Positions 2 through 10,813 of a stretch of DNA of 10,813 bases are shown here, in pieces. Source of the stretch: Bacteroidota bacterium (GTDB lineage: Bacteria; Bacteroidota; Bacteroidia; Bacteroidales; UBA10428); NCBI GenBank assembly GCA_024640925.1, contig JAHEEB010000006.1, positions 6,830-17,642 on the forward strand, given 5' to 3'. The position numbers and the translations under genes are program-made. Under the pieces are notes generated by a model. That model saw only the letters and a list, made by a program, of their open reading frames with translations. It did no database searches and was not told the origin of the DNA. Numbering within the stretch: position 1 is the first letter of the stretch; every line of letters begins with the position of its first letter.

Positions 2-547
2 GGATATGATGGGATGTATTTGAAAGATATATGGCAATACGATCCTGATAATGGTACATGGACAAAGAAAAACAGCTTTGCTGGTTATAAAAGAAAGGAT
101 GCTGTTGCGTTTGTTCTTGGAGGGAAAGGTTATATATGTACGGGAATAAGCAGTGGTTCTCCAACTTATCCAAACGATTTATATGAGTATGATCCAACAG
201 CTGACTCATGGACCAGAAAGAATTATATTTCTGCTTATACGGATGAATCTTTTGATGATGATTATGATAATATAGTTGGTACAGGTAAAGTTGTTTTTAC
301 AATGGGATATAGGGCATTTCTTGTTGGTGGAGGTTCAGGAACAGTTGATAATACTGTATGGGAATATGATCAGACTACCGATTTATGGGTGGAAAAAGCA
401 CCACTGGAAGCTGCAAGTCCAAGAACCGAAGCTGTTGCTTTTACTGTTAATGATGTAGGTTATGTAACTATGGGCAGAAGCAGCAGTCTATATCTGGATG
501 ATATCTGGTCTTTTGAACCAGATGAAGAATACGAGGAACATGACTAA
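2..547 (+). CDS. Kelch-repeat beta-propeller protein, C-terminal part (5' end outside window)
   Basis: The frame is open to the window edge: codons for G-Y-D-G precede the first ATG at 14, so that ATG is internal and 181 residues of a longer protein are seen. Four repeats of the Kelch outer-strand pattern (acidic-hydrophobic-aromatic-acidic-Y-D-P, then W a few residues on) are visible: DIWQYDPDNGTW, DLYEYDPTADSW, TVWEYDQTTDLW and a final DIWSFEPDEE. Glycine-rich inner strands lie between them (VLGGKGYICTG, FLVGGGSG, VGYVTMG). The last strand has no following W, as expected where a propeller closes on itself. Kelch propellers are usually binding modules; Bacteroidota copies are often annotated as galactose-oxidase-like but are mostly non-enzymatic, and no catalytic residues can be judged here. 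The stop codon TAA (545-547) lies inside the next gene, an 8-base overlap that suggests coupled translation. Family assignment is firm; ligand and location are unknown because the N-terminus is missing. Confidence 0.88.
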   Translation, partial: GYDGMYLKDIWQYDPDNGTWTKKNSFAGYKRKDAVAFVLGGKGYICTGISSGSPTYPNDLYEYDPTADSWTRKNYISAYTDESFDDDYDNIVGTGKVVFTMGYRAFLVGGGSGTVDNTVWEYDQTTDLWVEKAPLEAASPRTEAVAFTVNDVGYVTMGRSSSLYLDDIWSFEPDEEYEEHD

Positions 548-857
548 GAAAATATTTATAATATCTTCTATTGCTTTATTGATTGGCATTGGTGTTTTTT
601 CTTTTTTCAGATTTAACGAAAAAGATTATACTATAAAGGTTTACCAGGTTGAAAATGGATGGGGGTATGATATACTTTTAAACAAAAAAGCTTTGATTCA
701 TCAGGAAATTATCCCCGCAATTGCAGGTCAGCAAGCATTTCCTAATAAGAAAAGCGCTAAAGCTGCTGCCAGTCTGGTGGTTGAAAAGTTAGAAAAAAAT
801 AAAATTCCTGGCTTAAGCGCAGAAGAGGTCGGTGAAATTTTAGAAAAATATAGATAA
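540..857 (+). CDS. DUF4907 family small membrane-anchored protein
   Basis: This 105-residue protein has a short Lys-Lys start followed by a hydrophobic segment (about residues 5-23, IFIISSIALLIGIGVFSFF) that looks like a signal anchor or uncleaved signal peptide. There is no lipobox cysteine. The rest matches DUF4907 as I know it: an opening strand, the GWGYDILLNKKALIHQEIIP block (40-59), a Q-x-F-P segment (65-68), then an alpha helix rich in Ala and Lys ending in NKIPGLS. The usual family length is about 105-110 residues, so it is complete. I chose ATG 540 over the in-frame ATG at 498 because the extra 14 residues would lie deep inside the Kelch gene and ahead of the signal sequence. A is found at -3 and -6, with GAGG just upstream. 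It follows a Kelch gene with an 8-base overlap, a pairing I recall from other Bacteroidota. Function is unknown; an envelope location is inferred. Confidence 0.87.
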   Translation: MTKKIFIISSIALLIGIGVFSFFRFNEKDYTIKVYQVENGWGYDILLNKKALIHQEIIPAIAGQQAFPNKKSAKAAASLVVEKLEKNKIPGLSAEEVGEILEKYR

Positions 858-895: not shown

Positions 896-925
896 AGCTT
901 TACGAATTTCGTAAGGCTTTTTTTT
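896..925 (+). terminator. Second rho-independent terminator, plus-strand reading
   Basis: A ten-pair stem (896-905 with 909-918, one G-T wobble, loop ATT) is followed by a run of eight T (918-925). It works only for plus-strand transcription because the reverse strand lacks a T-tail. Its T-run overlaps the stop codon (924-926) of the minus-strand membrane protein gene. With the hairpin just before it, it forms a tandem terminator that isolates the Kelch/DUF4907 unit from the unit on the other strand. Confidence 0.8.
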
Positions 926-1883
926 AATTTGTTTTATTTGATTTGTAAAGTTTTTTTGAACACCAATAAATAAGTGCAATAAGTATTCCCATACAAACAA
1001 ATACAGATGTTGCTATCATTGGCTTCACAAACAGCTCCCGGCCAAAAGGCTTAATATTAATTCTTAAAATATTTGGAAGGGATGTTCCCATAATAGCAAA
1101 TAAAATAATGGAAATATGAATAGAAAAAAATAAAAATTGTTTAGCTATCTTATGATTCTTTTCCGAGTTTTGATTTGTCAAACCCAGAATTAGATACGAG
1201 ATATATAAAATCCATGTTAAAATGTGTGAAGCAGGCCAGAATGTTAAACTATATATTGGATCCATTTGAAATCCTTTTTGTGTACCTGAAATACGTAAAA
1301 ATTGCTCCCAGCCAATATATGTATGTGAACTAGTTAGATAATGTTCTGGTACTACTAATCCTTTATTTACCAAGGGTTCAATATATTGACTAATCCATAG
1401 TCCCAGTTGGTTGGTTACCAAAACATTTTGCCTAATCTGAATGTCAATACTGAACGAAATGAGTGCACAGATTCCTATTAACATATAAAATAGGTCCCAT
1501 TCTATTATATCCTTGATACCATCTAATCTTTTTTTAAATACGGAGTATCCTAAAACACTCAATATAGCCCCGATTATTAGAAATTTGATATGAAACCAAC
1601 TATTGCTACGATCATTTCTCGATGATATTTCATCTACAGCTTTCTTATACCCAATTAATATAATTTCCCTTCTCAAACTTTGGTCATTTTGTTTAATCAA
1701 AGATGTATCTATTTTATATTGTGTACATAAGGTATCTGTAAAAATTACTTTTTTAATTTCAGGGCTTAATGACATTGGGGGACACCAAAATATAGCAATT
1801 AGAAGAATAGATATGGATAAAAAAGAAAGATAACGTAATAATCTATTCCAGATAATTCTTTTATTTGAAGGGTTTCTTGCCAT
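924..1883 (-). CDS. Uncharacterised six-pass membrane protein, last gene of the minus-strand unit
   Basis: This 319-residue protein has hydrophobic segments at about residues 17-33, 100-114, 130-147, 212-235, 247-266 and 288-307. Lys/Arg-rich segments (NPSNKRIIWNRLLR at the start, KKRLDGIKD at 117-125, SEKNHKIAK at 240-248, SKKLYKSNK at the end) place both ends in the cytoplasm. Two larger loops of about 65 residues each (34-99 and 148-211) would face outward. I recognise no family, no enzyme motif and no transporter signature. The start is ambiguous: ATG 1883 lies 8 bases beyond the stop of the preceding gene, while an in-frame TTG at 1895 would overlap that stop in a TTGA and add four residues. 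I prefer the ATG. Either arrangement implies coupling to the 612-residue gene. Sampled lines are only about 28-33% GC, lower than the upstream genes, which suggests a more recently added or less constrained member. It could anchor the soluble proteins to the inner membrane, but that is inference. Confidence 0.72.
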   Translation of the reverse strand: MARNPSNKRIIWNRLLRYLSFLSISILLIAIFWCPPMSLSPEIKKVIFTDTLCTQYKIDTSLIKQNDQSLRREIILIGYKKAVDEISSRNDRSNSWFHIKFLIIGAILSVLGYSVFKKRLDGIKDIIEWDLFYMLIGICALISFSIDIQIRQNVLVTNQLGLWISQYIEPLVNKGLVVPEHYLTSSHTYIGWEQFLRISGTQKGFQMDPIYSLTFWPASHILTWILYISYLILGLTNQNSEKNHKIAKQFLFFSIHISIILFAIMGTSLPNILRINIKPFGRELFVKPMIATSVFVCMGILIALIYWCSKKLYKSNKTN

Positions 1884-1891
1884 ATTTTGGT

Positions 1892-3730
1892 TCAACTTAT
1901 TATCTGGTCGAAGCTTAAACCGCTTGTGCCTTCTCCTCTACCAGCTGTTTTCCGGATACCTAACCAGTTAAAAACCTTTCCTCCATACCATCTTGTACGT
2001 TGAAATGCCTGGCTAACTTTAATACCAGCTCTGGGCACTTCTTCTTCATGTATATAATAAGCTTTGGCTGGTATTTTATCTAGTCCTTCACGAAGCAAAA
2101 TACTTCGGGGCCTCACTCTTTCTGGTGCCAGAGTATCGCCTTTTATAATTCTTGGCATAGCTGCCCTTTGCAACTGTATCTCTCTATTGTCGCCTTCTTT
2201 ATGAACGGGTATAAACGGTATCCAGTTTTCCGGAACGCTATTCATTATCTGATACCTGATGCTGGCTATAGCTTCTTCGGTTGATTCAGATTCTACAGGA
2301 ACCGGAATTAATCTTTTGTAAAATGCGTAGAGTTCCCTTGCTGCTTCTGCTGCTTTGCTTCTTCTACCCGAGGGGAGTGTTATATCAGTTTCAATTGCCC
2401 AAACCATGTTTGCAATCTCATCGCGAATCATTATGAATTGTTCTAAAGCAGGACCTTCCTGTATTTTAGGTACTGTTGGCAATAGGATAAGGCTATTATC
2501 GGCCTGTTTTATATCTTTTCCCTTTCTATTTATAGTGAACATTGTCCATCGTTGCCAGTCATCATCTTTTCCTTTGCCTGTTGGTTCAACCCAAATTCTT
2601 TCTCCAAAAACATTTGCAACAACTAAACCTTTTACCTGCGAAATGGTGCCTGATTTAAGAGTTTGAGGAACGAGAAACCAATCATTTGCATAGATTAAAG
2701 CAAATTCTGAGAAAAGAAGTTTACCGATATCTATAGTATTGGGTTTTATATTACCCAGATAGGTCTTCCCTTCTTCGAAAGTCCACCAGCGGGTATTTGG
2801 CATACCACCAAAATCAATAGCTGTGGGGATCATGGAGTTTATTATAGAACCTTGCACATCTGTTTCATAACCTTCTACCGGAACTCCAAGACTGGGGATG
2901 CTATCATTAATGGATAAGTTAAACCAATCGAGCCGGCCGGTATAGTATTCTTCTGCCTCATAAATCTTTTCCTCTGTTTTTTCCGGTGCAGAGCAGGAGA
3001 ACTGGTATTCCAGTTTCGAAGGCAACCATGCATTATCTTCCGGATCATTGGGTTGCAGAAAGAACTGTTTAACCCAATCACTAAATTTAGGTGCCAGGCT
3101 GTTTATTAATGCTTCATTGGCATTTCCGGTGCCAATACTTGCCCCATCTTCAATGGCTTTAAAAACAAGGTACCCGTCAATTAATCTGCCTGAGGCGGCA
3201 GCAAAAACCTGCCATGCTTCGGGGTGTGCAAGTATAAATGCATCGTTTTTATTATTTGCATCGGATGGAGCAACAATTGAATACCCGGTATCAATAAAAA
3301 ATTTTGTCTGATCCCCACCACCATTTTTCTTAAGCATGTTAATCCAATGACGCCCCATCATCATTCGAATGTCAAGAGAAAAAACTTTGTTCTCGAACAA
3401 AAATGGAATGGGTCTTTGTTCTACAACAGCTTCCAGGGGTGCATTATTATCGAATGCTTTAACATTATGATTTGCTGCTTTATACTTATTGAGTCTTGTA
3501 GTGGTAATATAAATTTTCGAACCTACTGGTGAACCTGCATCATCTCCTAAAAACTCACCCATCTGCCATTGTTTGGTAAGCATCCATAAGGGATCCATGA
3601 TTTCTGCTTTGAGGGCTCTGTCAAAGTCTTCTTTACGGGGGCGTCCTTCCAGTCGGTTCCATAGTGTGATGGTTTGAAAAATCCTGGTATCTAAGGCAGA
3701 TTCTATATTTTCAATGGCTGTCCTGTTCAT
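1892..3730 (-). CDS. Uncharacterised 612-residue protein with QWQxGEFxGDDAGSP motif
   Basis: I cannot assign a function. The protein is soluble, with no signal peptide and no membrane segment. Its blocks are: NRLEGRPRKEDFDRALKAE (about 25-43), then DPLWMLTKQWQMGEFLGDDA (46-65) followed by GSPVGSK; PLEAVVEQRPIPF (98-110); RWWTFEEGKTYLG (about 313-325); a SEFALIYANDWFLVP block (about 340-356); LILLPTVPK then a RDEIANMVWAIE helix (about 434-446); and a C-terminus (567-612) with VPRAGIKVSQAFQRTRWYGG, NWLGIRKTAGRGEG and SGLSFD. These blocks resemble ones I recall in hypothetical proteins of distant bacteria, which I could not verify. I start at ATG 3730, 10 bases after the stop of the 1,928-residue gene, with A at -3 and -6. 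An in-frame ATG at 3775 would add 15 residues overlapping that gene's end and seems unlikely. It is the third gene of the unit, so it probably works with its two large neighbours. Confidence 0.82.
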   Translation of the reverse strand: MNRTAIENIESALDTRIFQTITLWNRLEGRPRKEDFDRALKAEIMDPLWMLTKQWQMGEFLGDDAGSPVGSKIYITTTRLNKYKAANHNVKAFDNNAPLEAVVEQRPIPFLFENKVFSLDIRMMMGRHWINMLKKNGGGDQTKFFIDTGYSIVAPSDANNKNDAFILAHPEAWQVFAAASGRLIDGYLVFKAIEDGASIGTGNANEALINSLAPKFSDWVKQFFLQPNDPEDNAWLPSKLEYQFSCSAPEKTEEKIYEAEEYYTGRLDWFNLSINDSIPSLGVPVEGYETDVQGSIINSMIPTAIDFGGMPNTRWWTFEEGKTYLGNIKPNTIDIGKLLFSEFALIYANDWFLVPQTLKSGTISQVKGLVVANVFGERIWVEPTGKGKDDDWQRWTMFTINRKGKDIKQADNSLILLPTVPKIQEGPALEQFIMIRDEIANMVWAIETDITLPSGRRSKAAEAARELYAFYKRLIPVPVESESTEEAIASIRYQIMNSVPENWIPFIPVHKEGDNREIQLQRAAMPRIIKGDTLAPERVRPRSILLREGLDKIPAKAYYIHEEEVPRAGIKVSQAFQRTRWYGGKVFNWLGIRKTAGRGEGTSGLSFDQIIS

Positions 3731-3740
3731 TGTGCTTATT

Positions 3741-6700
3741 TTAATTAGTGATAGATGGCAGATTGTTGAACGCATAATTAAGCATTATGCTTATTGGATG
3801 TTTTGTCACTGTTGATATAGTGGCTGGTAACAGATTGGCATAGCCTGTTTTGTCTATCTGTTCAGGTTCAACAGCCCTCAATTTAGCCTCTTTAAGGGTT
3901 TCGTGTAAAATATCGACTAAATCCTGCCAAAGCCAGCCCTGGCCATTCAATTGCGGCGACATGGCAAGGAGCATAGATTGAGGTGGTTCTGAATTTGGCC
4001 TGTCGTAATGGAAGGTTAAGCCTGCTGTCTGATTTTCAGTAGGTACAATTTCTGTCCATTCATCGATTAGCAAACCACATTGATATTTTGTTGAATCGAA
4101 TGGCTCATGATAATAAGCCGTATAAAGTAAATGGTCATTTTCGCGGAAAATCACATCCAGTTGTTTTTTAAGGTCAGCATCACTATTGCCAAACTCCATG
4201 GCAAACCAACTATACGGTGTGAGATATGGAAACTGAACTGGTTTAAGGTCGAAAGACTGAGTTTTGAATCCTTCGGCTAACATTATTGATTTTTCAAAAT
4301 GACTGATTTTCTCACGAACGCGGGCCACACCATAGAACCAATCGTCAACGGGTAATGGGTTTTTAAGAGTGTCTGTCTGGTACGACAATAATTCACTGAT
4401 TTTGCCGAATGATTTCTGCCATTCCTGGGCATTCACCGAAGGAACAATAAATGATGGAATCATCTTAAAATCATTGGTCAACAATTGTTTAGCCGCATCC
4501 TGAAGTATTTGAACTTTTTTTGTTGGGTTCGGCTCCAAATTATAGGAAGAGATTAGTTCGTTTACAGCTGATATTCTTTTGTCTAAATCGGTCTGCAATA
4601 GTTTAACCCTGGAGAGTAATGTATTAGCAAACAATAGGCACTCTCTTTTAATGTCCTCTATATCAGTGGTTACAAGATAGAAATCTTTGTAATCAAGAAG
4701 AGGCAAAGCGGCAGTTAATGCATCGGATATCATTATGTGATTAAAATCCAGGAAAGTGGAAAAAGCATTTTTCCGGTTATTGAAATTATTGATTTTTATA
4801 TCGATAACATTTGTTTTGAATACCAAAGGATCTGTTCCCGGATCAAGGGTTATGAGAGTGGAGATCACTTTTTCTACCTTTACTAAGCGATTTATCTTTT
4901 GTTCATCCGTAAGTGTATTGTAATCAGTTAAAAGAGCCAGATATTCTGTTTTTTTCTTTTGCCATACATCGACCAGTTTTTCAAATTTGGCAAACAGGTT
5001 TTTCATTTGTGTCTTTTTCCAGTCGTATGCAAAACCTATTCCGGTTTGTGGTATTCCAAGGGGTATTAGGGCAATTAAAATTGTAATAAACTCATCAAGC
5101 CTGTTGTCAATATTTCCAATGATGGTATCATCATCGTTAACATCTAATGAATTTTGAAGAGTAAAAACATAATTATCAAGAATCGGTTTTAATATGTTAA
5201 CGTAAGCTAAAACTAAGTCAATCCGCAGCTTATTGAGGTATACGTTTGTGTTGTTTGTATCACTTGTATCTGAACTCATCATTACATCGGTAGGTTGCAA
5301 TGGACGCGACCGGAGAAGGATTGCTCTTAAATGTTCGAGCAAGGGCGCTATTTCAAAGACAGAGATAAATCCATCCTCTTTTTTATAGTATGTAATTTTA
5401 ATATCTGTATCAGGCCTTGGCAGCTGTCCGTTGAAATTCGTATTTAATGTATAACTCACAACTAAATCATCTAATGTGGTCATTGATTGATTTCTATCCG
5501 TACTAATTATGTAAAGCAAATCGATTGGATTGAGTTGTAAATCAGTCATTGAGATTGGATGCTCAGATATTTCGCTATTTGAAGCCTTGTGGAAAAAAGT
5601 TACATAGCATCGGATAGTATTTAAATCAGGCAAGATATCTGTTAGAAAAACGTTTAATCCCGGTTCTGCCATAGCTCGTGGATTATATCCGGCCACATTG
5701 GGATCGGCATCTGCCGGAATTTGAAGTCCCACCCTGTGTGTAAGATTGACACCATTCCGGGGCGTTTGCACAACATCGGGCAATTGTGGGTAATTACCAG
5801 AACTGTATGTGTCGAGAGTTCCTGCAGCCCTGTCTATATTTCCCTGAACAACCTGGTGTATGCTTTCTGCAAAAGCAAGATCCGCAACAGCATCGTTCAT
5901 ATCGCGGATATTATTTATTTCGTTTACTATTATAGTTTTCTCTTGTTCTGTAACTGTTCCCAGGTTAAGATCCTCGAAATAAAGTGGTTCGTCGTTTGGT
6001 CCCAGGTTTGATTCCACAAATTGAATAAGTTCCAGTCCGTTTACAACGTTTCTTGCCTCCATAGCTTCGACAGGAACAGTTTCGTCCACCTCATGGGTCG
6101 ATTTCAGCTGGTTACAAACTAATGGAAATTTTCGACGAATTTTAAAGATAAACTGGTCAACATTCTCACCACTATTTTTGTCATGTATGCCTCTCTCTAA
6201 CTGGTATCCCAAAAGAGCAGCCAGGTTCTGTCCGTTCTGCATTCCTTCGATAATAAAAATGGCCTTTCTTACTCTCTCTGATGAAAGATTAATATTGAAC
6301 ATTTCGGCATTATCTTCATCAGCTCTTGAAAGGTACCCGTTACGCAGAATTGCAGCTGTTACGGCATGGTTGAGTGATGGTGCATTTATATACCCGAGAT
6401 TCGAATTATCATGATAAACCGGGGTCGTATTATCAGGATTAAACACTTCTTTTTGTTCCGAATCGAGCTCTACCTCAGTTAATTCTTTATATTCCGATTT
6501 AACATTTTCCAGCCAACCATAAGCTCCAATATATAATCCCTGGTTTATGGTTGTAGTATAGGTTTGTTGTTCACCTTCAACGGTATACTCTTCACGATTT
6601 CGTAAAGCTTTCAGCTGGTAATTAAGAACTCCGAATTTCCATGCATCGAACCGGTACGATGCACAATCGATATGTTCAACCAGAGCCCTTTCCAAGCGGG

Positions 6701-9527
6701 CAGTAGGTGTATTTTGCAACAATTTCAATGCATTGATCTGTCCGCTTAAATATCTTGTAGCAAAATTTTCCGGGCTAATAAGTTGAGGAATATAATCGAC
6801 AACAAGCATATTCTGATTGCTGGTGATTTTTGGTTCAGGTTGATAGAGTAAGCTATACCTGCTCTCACTTTTTGTCGGGTAATCGAACGAATTTGTCAGG
6901 TTTGGAGTAGCTGCATCAATAGTGGTTGCTGATAAAGGTCGGATATGGATGAAGTCGGGTTCTTTTTTAATAACATTTAATTTTGTACTGTCATATACTT
7001 CATTTATTGTGTATAGTTTGAGGCTGGTATCCCAATAACCCAGTTCAAGTGCATGCTTAAGCATCAGGTATAAAAGGGCAGTGGGTTTTTTGTTATCAAT
7101 GAACCCTTTTTCGGTCCGAAGATCATCAAATTTTGAACCGGCAACCCTTACAAGCCATTGGATATAGTTTTCAGGGGTTGTAATACCACCGTCTACATAA
7201 TTACTATATGTTCTTATAGGATTTAATTCTGAAAGGGGCACATCGTCAATTAGCGGACCAGTAAGTTTTTCTGCATTCAACACAAAAAGCTTTTCGAGTA
7301 TTGCAGGGGTTTCCTCCCCGGTATAACCGAACTCTTTTAATAACAGAGAACCTCCAATACTGTTAACAATGGCTTTAATTACCTGTTCAAATGTTACATT
7401 ATTTCCGGAACTGGAACCAGAACTGTTTGAAAGGAAGGAGAAAAGCATGAAAGTACTGCTTTGACTGCTTTGATAAAGGTTGAATATATGATTAAAACTT
7501 TCACCAATACGACTATAAAATTCTACAGAACCACTATGCAAACCAAGAATATCGAGGAGCAATTTATGAGGATCACCATTTTTTCCAACGTAAGAGACAT
7601 CTTCTGCCATTTTTATCCAGTCTTCCTGTATAATACTGAATTTTGAGAATAAATCGGGAAAAAACCTTGTGAAAGAAGCGGGTATATCTGTAATATCCTG
7701 TGGTACTGGTATTTGTTTGTCGTTAATCCAACTAATTCTTGAAAAAACGGTAGTAGGTAATATTCCATATGGTTGATCATCAATTCGTATGGATGGAATG
7801 GTTCCCCGGCCAACTACAAAATGGTTGAAAAACCAGCGGATTTGCTCAATCTGCGTATCGGTTAATACCGGCTTGAGCATCGTATCGAAAAAATAGCCCC
7901 AGGTAGTGGGCCATAAAGATATGTTCATAGCGCGAGCCTCAAGTTGATCGGTTCCATCGGTATTAATCATATCCTTAAATGTATCTTCACTTATCCCCAA
8001 CATTTCGCTAAACCATTTTCTATCCGATTTTGCCCACCATAGGTCAGATTCACCTTCAATTGCTTCGCTCGTATTTTTAAAGACTAAATCAAACGATTCA
8101 TCTGAATCTTCGGTACTATTAAATCCGGAAGGTGAATTAACGGTGTTGTTTGTGGGGGTTCCAACAGGTAGAAAACTAAATCCGGAATTTCCAAAATAGT
8201 GGTGTTTAATAAGAGTCTCAAGCTCCGTTTTGCCATCTTCGCTAGTAGAACTCATCTTTACACCCAACACAAAAAGTTTATTAAACCCTGTTTTTACCTG
8301 AGCCGGGGTTAAGTCTATCTTAAACCCCATTCCTTTATTCACAGCTTCGTCAAAATCTATCATCCAGCGCATTTCGCTAGTAATCTTTATATCAGTTCCA
8401 GGTATTTTAATCAGATCTTCCTCCTTCATTTTTGGATCAGGGCCAACAATCAAAGGAAAAGGTATTTCATTACCAATTTTCTCAATGCTTAGTGCATCAT
8501 TGATATAACCAAGTAAATATAATCGTTCAGGCATTATCAATACCTTTGGAGCATGAGACCATGATTCTTTCTGAAAATCGGTAATCTCTTTAAATTCAAT
8601 GAATTTAACTTCAATAATTAGTTCAACTCCTTCACTGGTAGCTGGTGGAGTATCGTTTATGTTTTTTGGTTTGTATTTGGTTATTAATTCACTGGAACGT
8701 TCGCCCAATAAATTATATAGTTTGGTTCTTGCCTGTTCAATTATATTCTGATCGCCTTTTGCATACCAAACAGTAAGCCAGAATTCGGTTAATGCAGGTT
8801 TATCAGCATCCGTAATCTGGGGGTATCCATTGATAACCAGGTAAACTGCTGGTGTTGTCAGTTCTTCTCCTGAGTGTAATATCTCATCATAATTGCTGAT
8901 GAGATTATTTTCAATATAGTAGTTTATAATATGTTGGGCTCTGCCATGACCACGCCCGTTTGTCAGGATTCTCCAGGCTGATCTTCGCAGCCCTTCATTC
9001 CCTGCAGCTATCCACCAGTCAATCCAAAAGGTTTGAATGTCTTTTATTTCAGCCTCAGATAAGGTTTCTTCAAATGTATCAATGGAACAATCGTCGGGAT
9101 AAACCCGAACCCAAAGCTGGTCTTGGGCTATATGAGACATATTGGGATTTACAACCTTTTTAAAACGTGTTTCTATTCTCAATGGCAGTAATAGAATAGG
9201 AATTGTATCATCGAGCCGGTTGAGATTTGTTTTTGGATCGGTAAATTGATAAAATTCCTTTATAGCCGAAGCCAGAGAAGTATTCAGGTTATTTATTTTA
9301 GCATTTTCCTCAGCAATGATATCTTCAGCCTCTTTTTTCTGAGACTCCAAAGACCGTAAGAGGGCAACATGGGCTTGATTTTCCTTATTGAAATATCTTT
9401 TAAGCCGTTGTTCCTGATCCTTTATTTTTTGAATACGTTCATTAGCAAGGAATACCTGGTTTTCGCTATAGGTTTTCTGTTCTCTCAGGTATTTAAGTCC
9501 CGAACTGTCAATTTCGTCGAATGGCAT
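3741..9527 (-). CDS. Uncharacterised 1,928-residue protein with N-terminal coiled coil
   Basis: I cannot assign a function. There is no signal peptide, clear membrane span or nucleotide-binding loop. Residues about 13-92 form a charged coiled coil. Then come: IPILLLPLRIETRF (109-122) and LWVRVYPDDCSIDTFEE (138-154), leading into a duplicated FWxxxWxAxG unit (167-190 and 249-272); VGTPTNNTVNSPSGF (455-469); GRGTIPSIRIDDQPYGILPT (573-592); a Ser/Gly/Asn linker (697-710); EHIDCASYRFDAWKFG (about 950-965); GLYIGAYGWLENV (about 995-1007); INAPSLNHAVTAAILRNGYL (about 1047-1066); SSERVRKAI and LLGYQLERGIHD (about 1080-1116); AESIHQVVQGNIDRAAGTLD (about 1217-1236); TPRNGVNLTHRVG and NPRAMAEPGLNVFL (to about 1295). 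Long helices fill about 1400-1720. VDDWFYGVARVREKI (about 1724-1738) and FHYDRPNSEPPQSMLLAMSP (1839-1858), with an HETLKEAKLRAVEPEQID helix, close it. The start ATG lies 11 A-rich bases after the previous stop. The size and modular layout suggest a structural or scaffold protein; this is inference. Confidence 0.85.
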   Translation of the reverse strand: MPFDEIDSSGLKYLREQKTYSENQVFLANERIQKIKDQEQRLKRYFNKENQAHVALLRSLESQKKEAEDIIAEENAKINNLNTSLASAIKEFYQFTDPKTNLNRLDDTIPILLLPLRIETRFKKVVNPNMSHIAQDQLWVRVYPDDCSIDTFEETLSEAEIKDIQTFWIDWWIAAGNEGLRRSAWRILTNGRGHGRAQHIINYYIENNLISNYDEILHSGEELTTPAVYLVINGYPQITDADKPALTEFWLTVWYAKGDQNIIEQARTKLYNLLGERSSELITKYKPKNINDTPPATSEGVELIIEVKFIEFKEITDFQKESWSHAPKVLIMPERLYLLGYINDALSIEKIGNEIPFPLIVGPDPKMKEEDLIKIPGTDIKITSEMRWMIDFDEAVNKGMGFKIDLTPAQVKTGFNKLFVLGVKMSSTSEDGKTELETLIKHHYFGNSGFSFLPVGTPTNNTVNSPSGFNSTEDSDESFDLVFKNTSEAIEGESDLWWAKSDRKWFSEMLGISEDTFKDMINTDGTDQLEARAMNISLWPTTWGYFFDTMLKPVLTDTQIEQIRWFFNHFVVGRGTIPSIRIDDQPYGILPTTVFSRISWINDKQIPVPQDITDIPASFTRFFPDLFSKFSIIQEDWIKMAEDVSYVGKNGDPHKLLLDILGLHSGSVEFYSRIGESFNHIFNLYQSSQSSTFMLFSFLSNSSGSSSGNNVTFEQVIKAIVNSIGGSLLLKEFGYTGEETPAILEKLFVLNAEKLTGPLIDDVPLSELNPIRTYSNYVDGGITTPENYIQWLVRVAGSKFDDLRTEKGFIDNKKPTALLYLMLKHALELGYWDTSLKLYTINEVYDSTKLNVIKKEPDFIHIRPLSATTIDAATPNLTNSFDYPTKSESRYSLLYQPEPKITSNQNMLVVDYIPQLISPENFATRYLSGQINALKLLQNTPTARLERALVEHIDCASYRFDAWKFGVLNYQLKALRNREEYTVEGEQQTYTTTINQGLYIGAYGWLENVKSEYKELTEVELDSEQKEVFNPDNTTPVYHDNSNLGYINAPSLNHAVTAAILRNGYLSRADEDNAEMFNINLSSERVRKAIFIIEGMQNGQNLAALLGYQLERGIHDKNSGENVDQFIFKIRRKFPLVCNQLKSTHEVDETVPVEAMEARNVVNGLELIQFVESNLGPNDEPLYFEDLNLGTVTEQEKTIIVNEINNIRDMNDAVADLAFAESIHQVVQGNIDRAAGTLDTYSSGNYPQLPDVVQTPRNGVNLTHRVGLQIPADADPNVAGYNPRAMAEPGLNVFLTDILPDLNTIRCYVTFFHKASNSEISEHPISMTDLQLNPIDLLYIISTDRNQSMTTLDDLVVSYTLNTNFNGQLPRPDTDIKITYYKKEDGFISVFEIAPLLEHLRAILLRSRPLQPTDVMMSSDTSDTNNTNVYLNKLRIDLVLAYVNILKPILDNYVFTLQNSLDVNDDDTIIGNIDNRLDEFITILIALIPLGIPQTGIGFAYDWKKTQMKNLFAKFEKLVDVWQKKKTEYLALLTDYNTLTDEQKINRLVKVEKVISTLITLDPGTDPLVFKTNVIDIKINNFNNRKNAFSTFLDFNHIMISDALTAALPLLDYKDFYLVTTDIEDIKRECLLFANTLLSRVKLLQTDLDKRISAVNELISSYNLEPNPTKKVQILQDAAKQLLTNDFKMIPSFIVPSVNAQEWQKSFGKISELLSYQTDTLKNPLPVDDWFYGVARVREKISHFEKSIMLAEGFKTQSFDLKPVQFPYLTPYSWFAMEFGNSDADLKKQLDVIFRENDHLLYTAYYHEPFDSTKYQCGLLIDEWTEIVPTENQTAGLTFHYDRPNSEPPQSMLLAMSPQLNGQGWLWQDLVDILHETLKEAKLRAVEPEQIDKTGYANLLPATISTVTKHPISIMLNYAFNNLPSITN
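8712..9029 (-). repeat. Diverged tandem duplication inside the 1,928-residue protein
   Basis: Residues 167-190 (FWIDWWIAAGNEGL and onward) and 249-272 (FWLTVWYAKGDQNII and onward) align without gaps over 24 positions. F, W, W, A, G, A, L and N are identical (8 of 24), with I/L, N/D, E/Q and L/I exchanges. Each copy follows a segment ending in an acidic, helix-starting stretch (LSEAEIKDIQT and ITDADKPALTE). The duplication is visible only at protein level; the DNA has diverged too far to recombine easily. Confidence 0.5.
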
Positions 9528-9538
9528 TTTATTTTTGT

Positions 9539-10813
9539 TTAATTAAACGTTGAAAGCATTTCTGCACCATGTACTGCAACCATTACTGGAGCCTGAAAAA
9601 GTATGTAAGCCAGTTCTGCCGAATTCATATCTTTGTTCCAGGTAAATTGAACATCCTCTTCGCGCTGGGCAATTTTTTCGTCGTCGTCATCCTCCAACGA
9701 ATTTTCATTTACATCAATTTTTTGAGTTTCCGAATTAATCTGAAGGAACATTGAACTGGTTTCGTTAATTGCTGGTGTTACATTACCCCAGGCCATATCA
9801 TTCCAGACTTCGAGTTCACCTTCTGCGGCTGTCCCTATATCCAACCCGAAGCAGGGTTCGCCAGGTCGCTCTTTAATAACAAAGAACCAACCTGCCTGGT
9901 CTTCAAGGTTTGCAGGTTCACCTGTGGTTAGACCTTTTACTTCCGGTACCGTAAGATCGAACCCGAAGAAATATATATCCGGATCAACTTTTGCTTCATA
10001 TAAAGGACTTTTAACTGTATCGTTTGGAGGATTTTCTTCCATATTATCCGCCAATGGTACAAGTTCTCTTTCTTGTACTTTGTCGGGTGTGGGATCTGTG
10101 TCACTTTTAGGTTTCCATTTAGCCCTGTGGGCATATATTACAGCATTTGGGTATTTCTTTAGCAATTCTCCACGAATAACAAGTACTACTTCCTCTTCAC
10201 TTTCACCGGGAATTTCGCGATTATCATGCGCTCCAAGTTTTGAGTTTCTTGACCACAGATGCAATTTTGGAATATCTTTAAGTTTCTCTTTAATTTTATC
10301 CCGCAACATTTTGTTAATTAATTCAGTATCACTATCATCAGCAATTTCGTCTTTTATTTCCTCAACCATTTTATCAATTTCACTCTGCTCGAAAAGATAA
10401 TCACTGGCATCCCAGAATTGTCTGAAATAACTTCCTCGCTGATCAGTAGGGTATTCTCTCCAAAGGAGTTCTCGTGCAAACTCATGGTTAAGCCCTACCA
10501 TGTACGATTCGATAAATTTCTGATTCGTTTCTAAAAGGGTTATTGAATTTTGTTCTATTAAATTGATATTTGGCAGAAACAAGTCAGGAGAAATATCAAT
10601 CAAAGGCTTATACATAGGAGTATCTATTTCAGGATAAGCCATTGCTTCTTTAAATACTTCCCTGAAAAATTCCAATCGAAGCCTATCAGGAATAAATACT
10701 TTGTTTTTAAGTACAAATTCAGGTATTGATTTATCAGGGTTGATCGTGCTGAGCGTTGCGCTGACAATTTCGGTTAAGTTTAATTCAGGCTTAACAGGTT
10801 CTTCTGCTTTCTG
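9539..10813 (-). CDS. Uncharacterised protein with ELLWREYPTDQRG motif, C-terminal 424 residues (5' end outside window)
   Basis: The frame is open to the window edge: 46 in-frame codons lie upstream of the TTG at 10675, including the segment IPEFVLKNKVFIPDRL, so that TTG is an ordinary Leu codon and the true start is beyond 10813. Function is unknown. Numbering from the window edge, recognisable blocks are: YMVGLNHEFARELLWREYPT (105-124), running into DQRGSYFRQFWD; an acidic linker (about 145-170); LHLWSRNSKLGAH; VVLVIRGELLKKYPNAVIYA (209-228); DPDIYFFGFDLT (277-288); AGWFFVIKERPGEPCFGLD (307-325); a strongly acidic stretch (LEDDDDE, about 373-379); and AELAYILFQAPVMVAVHGAE near the end (399-418). 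I recall similar blocks in hypothetical proteins of other phyla, unverified. No membrane segment is seen in this part. It is the most upstream member of the unit visible here and ends 11 bases before the 1,928-residue gene, so the two are surely co-transcribed. Confidence 0.8.
   Translation of the reverse strand, partial: QKAEEPVKPELNLTEIVSATLSTINPDKSIPEFVLKNKVFIPDRLRLEFFREVFKEAMAYPEIDTPMYKPLIDISPDLFLPNINLIEQNSITLLETNQKFIESYMVGLNHEFARELLWREYPTDQRGSYFRQFWDASDYLFEQSEIDKMVEEIKDEIADDSDTELINKMLRDKIKEKLKDIPKLHLWSRNSKLGAHDNREIPGESEEEVVLVIRGELLKKYPNAVIYAHRAKWKPKSDTDPTPDKVQERELVPLADNMEENPPNDTVKSPLYEAKVDPDIYFFGFDLTVPEVKGLTTGEPANLEDQAGWFFVIKERPGEPCFGLDIGTAAEGELEVWNDMAWGNVTPAINETSSMFLQINSETQKIDVNENSLEDDDDEKIAQREEDVQFTWNKDMNSAELAYILFQAPVMVAVHGAEMLSTFN

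Follow-up and report, generated by a model that had tools for sequence, protein, structure and literature searches.

A five-gene unit combining a DUF6603 protein with an exchangeable enzyme: a possible protein carrier of bacteria and haloarchaea

Background

Conserved carriers combined with an exchangeable enzyme are known from the Tc and Rhs systems, where, as outlined in PMC7861908, recombination takes place inside the conserved core. The subject of this work is a gene unit, Y-Z-A-B-C, whose 3' part appears to lie in a stretch of 10,813 nucleotides from a Bacteroidota bacterium (G000:C781:6830-17642, hereafter the window); it resembles Tc and Rhs in its pattern of exchange and differs from them in that what varies is not a C-terminal tip but a separate gene on the 5' side together with the N-terminal half of the next protein. 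An exchangeable enzymatic payload is likewise a feature of extracellular contractile injection systems; unlike these systems, the unit has no recurrent sheath neighbour.

The protein Z of the unit belongs, by profile match above the curated cut-off, to the DUF6603 family (PF20248), whose function is itself unknown and whose Pfam model spans only residues about 430-997 of Z from locus L003. The Z of the window's genome, on contig C463, scores 444.8 bits against a cut-off of 27, and those of L003 and L045 score 423.3 and 433.1 bits. The family also comprises a second, divergent class, which unlike the unit has none of A, B and C nearby. The enzymes Y of the window's genome are similar to NARROW LEAF 1-like trypsin proteins (NAL1_N / Nal1_C) by a trypsin match and weak NAL1 matches; they differ from these proteins in being bacterial, in being tied to a carrier and in having a C-terminal domain common to half of the subtilase Y.

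Results and discussion

Judged from sequence, Z, A, B and C are one conserved gene block. Among 80 loci collected by a scan with B, which is therefore present in all of them by construction, the four genes occur together in 67, from 13 bacterial phyla, and their order is kept in 66 of these 67; the unit was also found on haloarchaeal plasmids. Independent draws were made by taking a DUF6603 search, instead of B, as the starting point: the family is present in 17 of 395 Bacteroidota genomes, the window's genome included, and in 6 of 246 Actinomycetota genomes, the centre genome included. The 17 Bacteroidota regions fetched contain Z-A-B-C in seven cases and none of A, B and C in the other ten, and the five Actinomycetota regions fetched contain all four genes in three cases, Z and A as far as the contig reaches in one, and none in one. 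Exactly one DUF6603 match was found in 34 of the 40 genomes reached via the B loci, and two or three in the other six; five extra copies were fetched, two of them with all four genes and three with none of A, B and C. The proposal of the sequence-only reading of the window, that A, B and C travel together across phyla, is borne out by these counts, and homologs occurring singly and never adjacent were not the rule, apart from one Streptomyces anthocyanicus plasmid (L124), which has a lone C, a short remnant of B and IS5 transposase genes nearby and is probably a decayed unit.

The gene Y, mostly located within 30 bases of Z, is an exchangeable enzyme gene. The classified Y are mostly proteases and also include a phospholipase-D-like protein, tyrosinase and PhoD, with no nuclease among them; catalytic motifs are intact in most Y. 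By their class these are enzymes of extracellular type, and signal-peptide-like starts are almost absent among them in a crude test. Sequence comparison shows that Y is inherited as one cassette with the N-terminal ~500-540 residues of Z (Z-N), and that lineages have swapped this cassette at a conserved position within Z; the remaining part of Z (Z-C), together with A, B and C, has a history that differs from that of the cassette. The breakpoint coincides with a rise in Z conservation, and in the closest pair of loci DNA similarity begins at about codon 487 of Z and stops just past C. Both observations suit a passive linkage, in which Y would simply accompany the 5' half of Z because homologous recombination could take place only where Z is conserved, towards its 3' end, and Y and Z-N would not have to be in contact. 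We consider this unlikely, since the association of Y class with Z-N holds across several phyla, the Y/Z junction is nearly without reassortment (9-12 changes vs a minimum of 8) and, within the S8, M64 and S1 classes, the finer identity of Y follows that of Z-N.

An out-of-sample check was carried out on ten held-out loci, in which Y was unclassified or absent, or Z-N too distant, except for the window's genome, the only clean test. This genome passes: its Y is a trypsin, its Z-N is nearest to that of trypsin loci (from both contigs that carry the 5' part of the unit) and its Z-C is nearest to that of the subtilase-bearing L003 (78%). It has a trypsin-type cassette on a carrier closest to a subtilase-bearing one. 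In another locus (L115:11626-18237) Z has 2,203 residues and its DUF6603 part starts from residue 1488, leaving roughly 1,000 extra N-terminal residues; this is perhaps a Y-Z fusion, with the enzyme class not assigned.

In the window all genes of the unit are on the minus strand. Gene A (9539-10813) is an open reading frame for the C-terminal 424 residues with an open 5' end, incomplete because the contig (17,642 bases) stops at the last base of the window. Gene B (3741-9527) encodes 1928 residues, a putative carrier protein without known, described relatives, and gene C (1892-3730) encodes a putative carrier protein of 612 residues; homologues support the ATG that gives this length, an upstream ATG also being open and giving 627 residues. 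A and B are separated by 11 bases and B and C by 10, in agreement with the three consecutive genes of at least 424, 1,928 and 612 residues described earlier. C overlaps by 4 bases with gene D (924-1895, minus strand), which encodes a membrane protein of 323 residues for which six passes had been proposed and five hydrophobic stretches were found at the threshold used. The four-gene unit that had been proposed is wrong at both ends: D is excluded because, outside L001 and L002 (the window's own contig), it was found in none of 80 other loci (phmmer) and none of 39 other genomes searched, and genes 5' of A belong to the unit; these, with their recognisable enzymes, had been missed because the contig ends. 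They lie on two further small contigs, C192 and C463, from this genome, which carry two tandem trypsin-like proteases (Y), the DUF6603 protein and the beginning of A (N-terminal 358 residues; contig C463, L102:3-1076), the middle of A being uncovered. The second protease, Y2, matches Trypsin (PF00089) above cut-off with an E value of 5.1e-5; both have weak NAL1 matches below cut-off, and the motif GDSG is present.

The carrier proteins have many relatives and nearly no names. At E <= 0.001 A has 1464 relatives, and B and C, for which about 8,000 candidates with the most words in common were scored, have at least 1121 and at least 2700; 'hypothetical protein' is nearly every name among the best 120 relatives listed for each of the three. 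C and the C-terminal 424 residues of A match nothing in Pfam or NCBIfam at E <= 1, and B has only weak matches, far under curated cut-offs. Among the window proteins, a scan of PHROGs gave two weak matches (C and D, E about 0.1), none of them credible, and a sequence search of the PDB gave none. No match in the PDB was found for the predicted fold of C (predicted template modelling score, pTM, 0.76). In agreement with what had been suspected, then, A, B and C do not match characterised unrelated families.

Several features point to membranes. Full-length relatives of A have about 1,100 residues, and a hydropathy scan places a membrane-spanning stretch around residues 605-700 for 48 of 63 open reading frames, a scan that is not specific, as it also flags 55 of 62 Z; Z-C has many amphipathic beta strands. 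These same features speak against a storage or maturation scaffold, in which an active enzyme would be kept latent in the cell and not exported, and so does the lamin-tail domain carried by the haloarchaeal C, since this domain is usually extracellular. Catalytic motifs kept in most Y, the lack of signal peptides and the very large size of the carrier are what such a scaffold would have; on balance it appears quite improbable.

If the carrier enclosed Y and injected it into competing or host cells, the unit would be a released antagonistic toxin complex of the Tc/Rhs type, which is a special case of carriage across a membrane with another cell as the target. With its interchangeable payload and with recombination located in a conserved core, the unit recalls the exchange outlined for TcC and Rhs (PMC7861908). 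The predominance of proteases among the classified Y, the phospholipase-D-like protein and the membrane-compatible appearance of Z-C agree with this as well. To our knowledge, however, tyrosinase and PhoD are not typical toxins, and L031 and L070 come from what we take to be relatives of nitrifiers or methanotrophs, which are not known predators. No immunity gene recurs beside Y among the neighbours. RHS and Tc families are also missing: no Pfam family of RHS repeats or Tc subunit domains was matched at E <= 1 in the C-terminal 424 residues of A, B and C of the window, or in Z and the full A of L003. In the fold comparison of predicted Z (pTM 0.45) and C, no Tc or Rhs chain was among the matches listed; a shared fold may still exist. 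We regard a toxin complex as an unlikely, though not negligible, alternative.

Exchangeable proteases and a phospholipase D serve as effectors in immune and cell-death systems, and the patchy distribution of DUF6603 noted above would suit an intracellular system of this kind, in which an invader sensed by the carrier would trigger the release of Y and so the death of the cell. Nevertheless, anti-phage models of PADLOC, run on seven proteins, gave a single weak match, to JetC (E 0.02), which covers a coiled coil of B; no nucleotide-binding domain was above cut-off (iSTAND in A of L003 at E 0.09 only), the classified Y include no nuclease, and tyrosinase and PhoD would be odd effectors. This explanation seems very unlikely.

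We propose, with a probability of about 0.5, that Y-Z-A-B-C, of which the window has the 3' part, is a modular enzyme-carrier unit of five genes and that its carrier conveys Y to a membrane or across it. Y would dock on Z-N, its cognate adaptor, as their co-inheritance suggests; Z-C, A, B and C may build a large common assembly, with the amphipathic strands of Z-C and the membrane stretch present in most A; this assembly would bring Y, which is of extracellular type and lacks a signal peptide, to the membrane or through it, so that Y would be delivered or displayed outside the cytoplasm. More tentatively, and at less than even odds, the unit could be an undescribed export or injection apparatus of bacteria and haloarchaea, made of four families without described relatives, with no contractile sheath, and with cargo and cognate adaptor domain swapped as one cassette. 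The sheath family is present in 22 of 40 unit genomes; the nearest copy is 6.5 kb from Z, in one genome, and is a lone gene in the 20 kb examined. This tail-sheath gene, of Gelidibacter japonicus (L139:15150-16712; PF04984, PF17482), lies between CRISPR-Cas genes (Cas1, Cas3, Cas5, Cas6, Cas7) and the unit.

Several observations weigh against the proposed carrier. No ATPase or other motor is among the recurrent neighbours of the unit, so that an energy source for export is missing, and the membrane stretch was undetected in A of 13 Actinomycetota and 2 Nannocystis. Passive linkage could produce the same pattern of co-inheritance of Y and Z-N. As for the cassette, nine Y were left out for want of a class; the U1 loci are without clear correlation (0.25 against 0.20, 14 pairs); the PhoD loci, not clearly grouped by Z-N, fit weakly at best; those S8 loci that lack the shared C-terminal domain require 4 changes on Z-N; L130 is a misfit, its Y being weakly M64-like and its Z-N nearest to M14; and L116 has Z-N, with no Y found adjoining. 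The independent draws also overlap in part, as L111, one of the seven Bacteroidota regions with Z-A-B-C, and L055 of the B scan are one and the same contig.

Some loci depart from the common arrangement. On a Rhizobium lusitanum plasmid (L126) A and B are split into more, smaller genes, and genes for a GH25 lysozyme and a glucosaminidase are downstream. A record labelled 'Bacteriophage sp.' (L127, GenBank MT835531) carries Z-A-B-C; its other genes suggest a bacterial chromosome, probably actinobacterial: they include an nSTAND1/BTAD regulator, alcohol dehydrogenase, LexA, an AlkZ-like protein and a periplasmic binding protein. The divergent DUF6603 class (about 920 to 3,220 residues; L103-L108, L113, L117, L118) has large unknown neighbours, one of which, in L103, has a DUF4135 match; it is possibly a related system. 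At the other end of the window (2-857, plus strand) lie two genes convergent with the unit, neither showing any sign of belonging to it: a Kelch protein gene, whose 5' part is outside the window, with a stretch of N, and next to it a DUF4907 gene.

Conclusions

No description of the Y-Z-A-B-C unit was found in the literature, as the sequence-only reading had anticipated in calling the system undescribed. We rate the unit as new as a set of proteins because its sequence fits none of the tested families except DUF6603 and no description was found; its logic of exchange is known elsewhere. If the proposal is true, thousands of 'hypothetical proteins' found in haloarchaea and in 13 or more bacterial phyla would be parts of one machine with interchangeable enzymes, that is, a new class of protein carrier, and the sharp swap point predicts that the N-terminal half of DUF6603 proteins recognises its own enzyme. 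Whether or not the idea of export is wrong, an explanation is still needed for the exchange of cassettes and for the fold of C, which has found no match so far.
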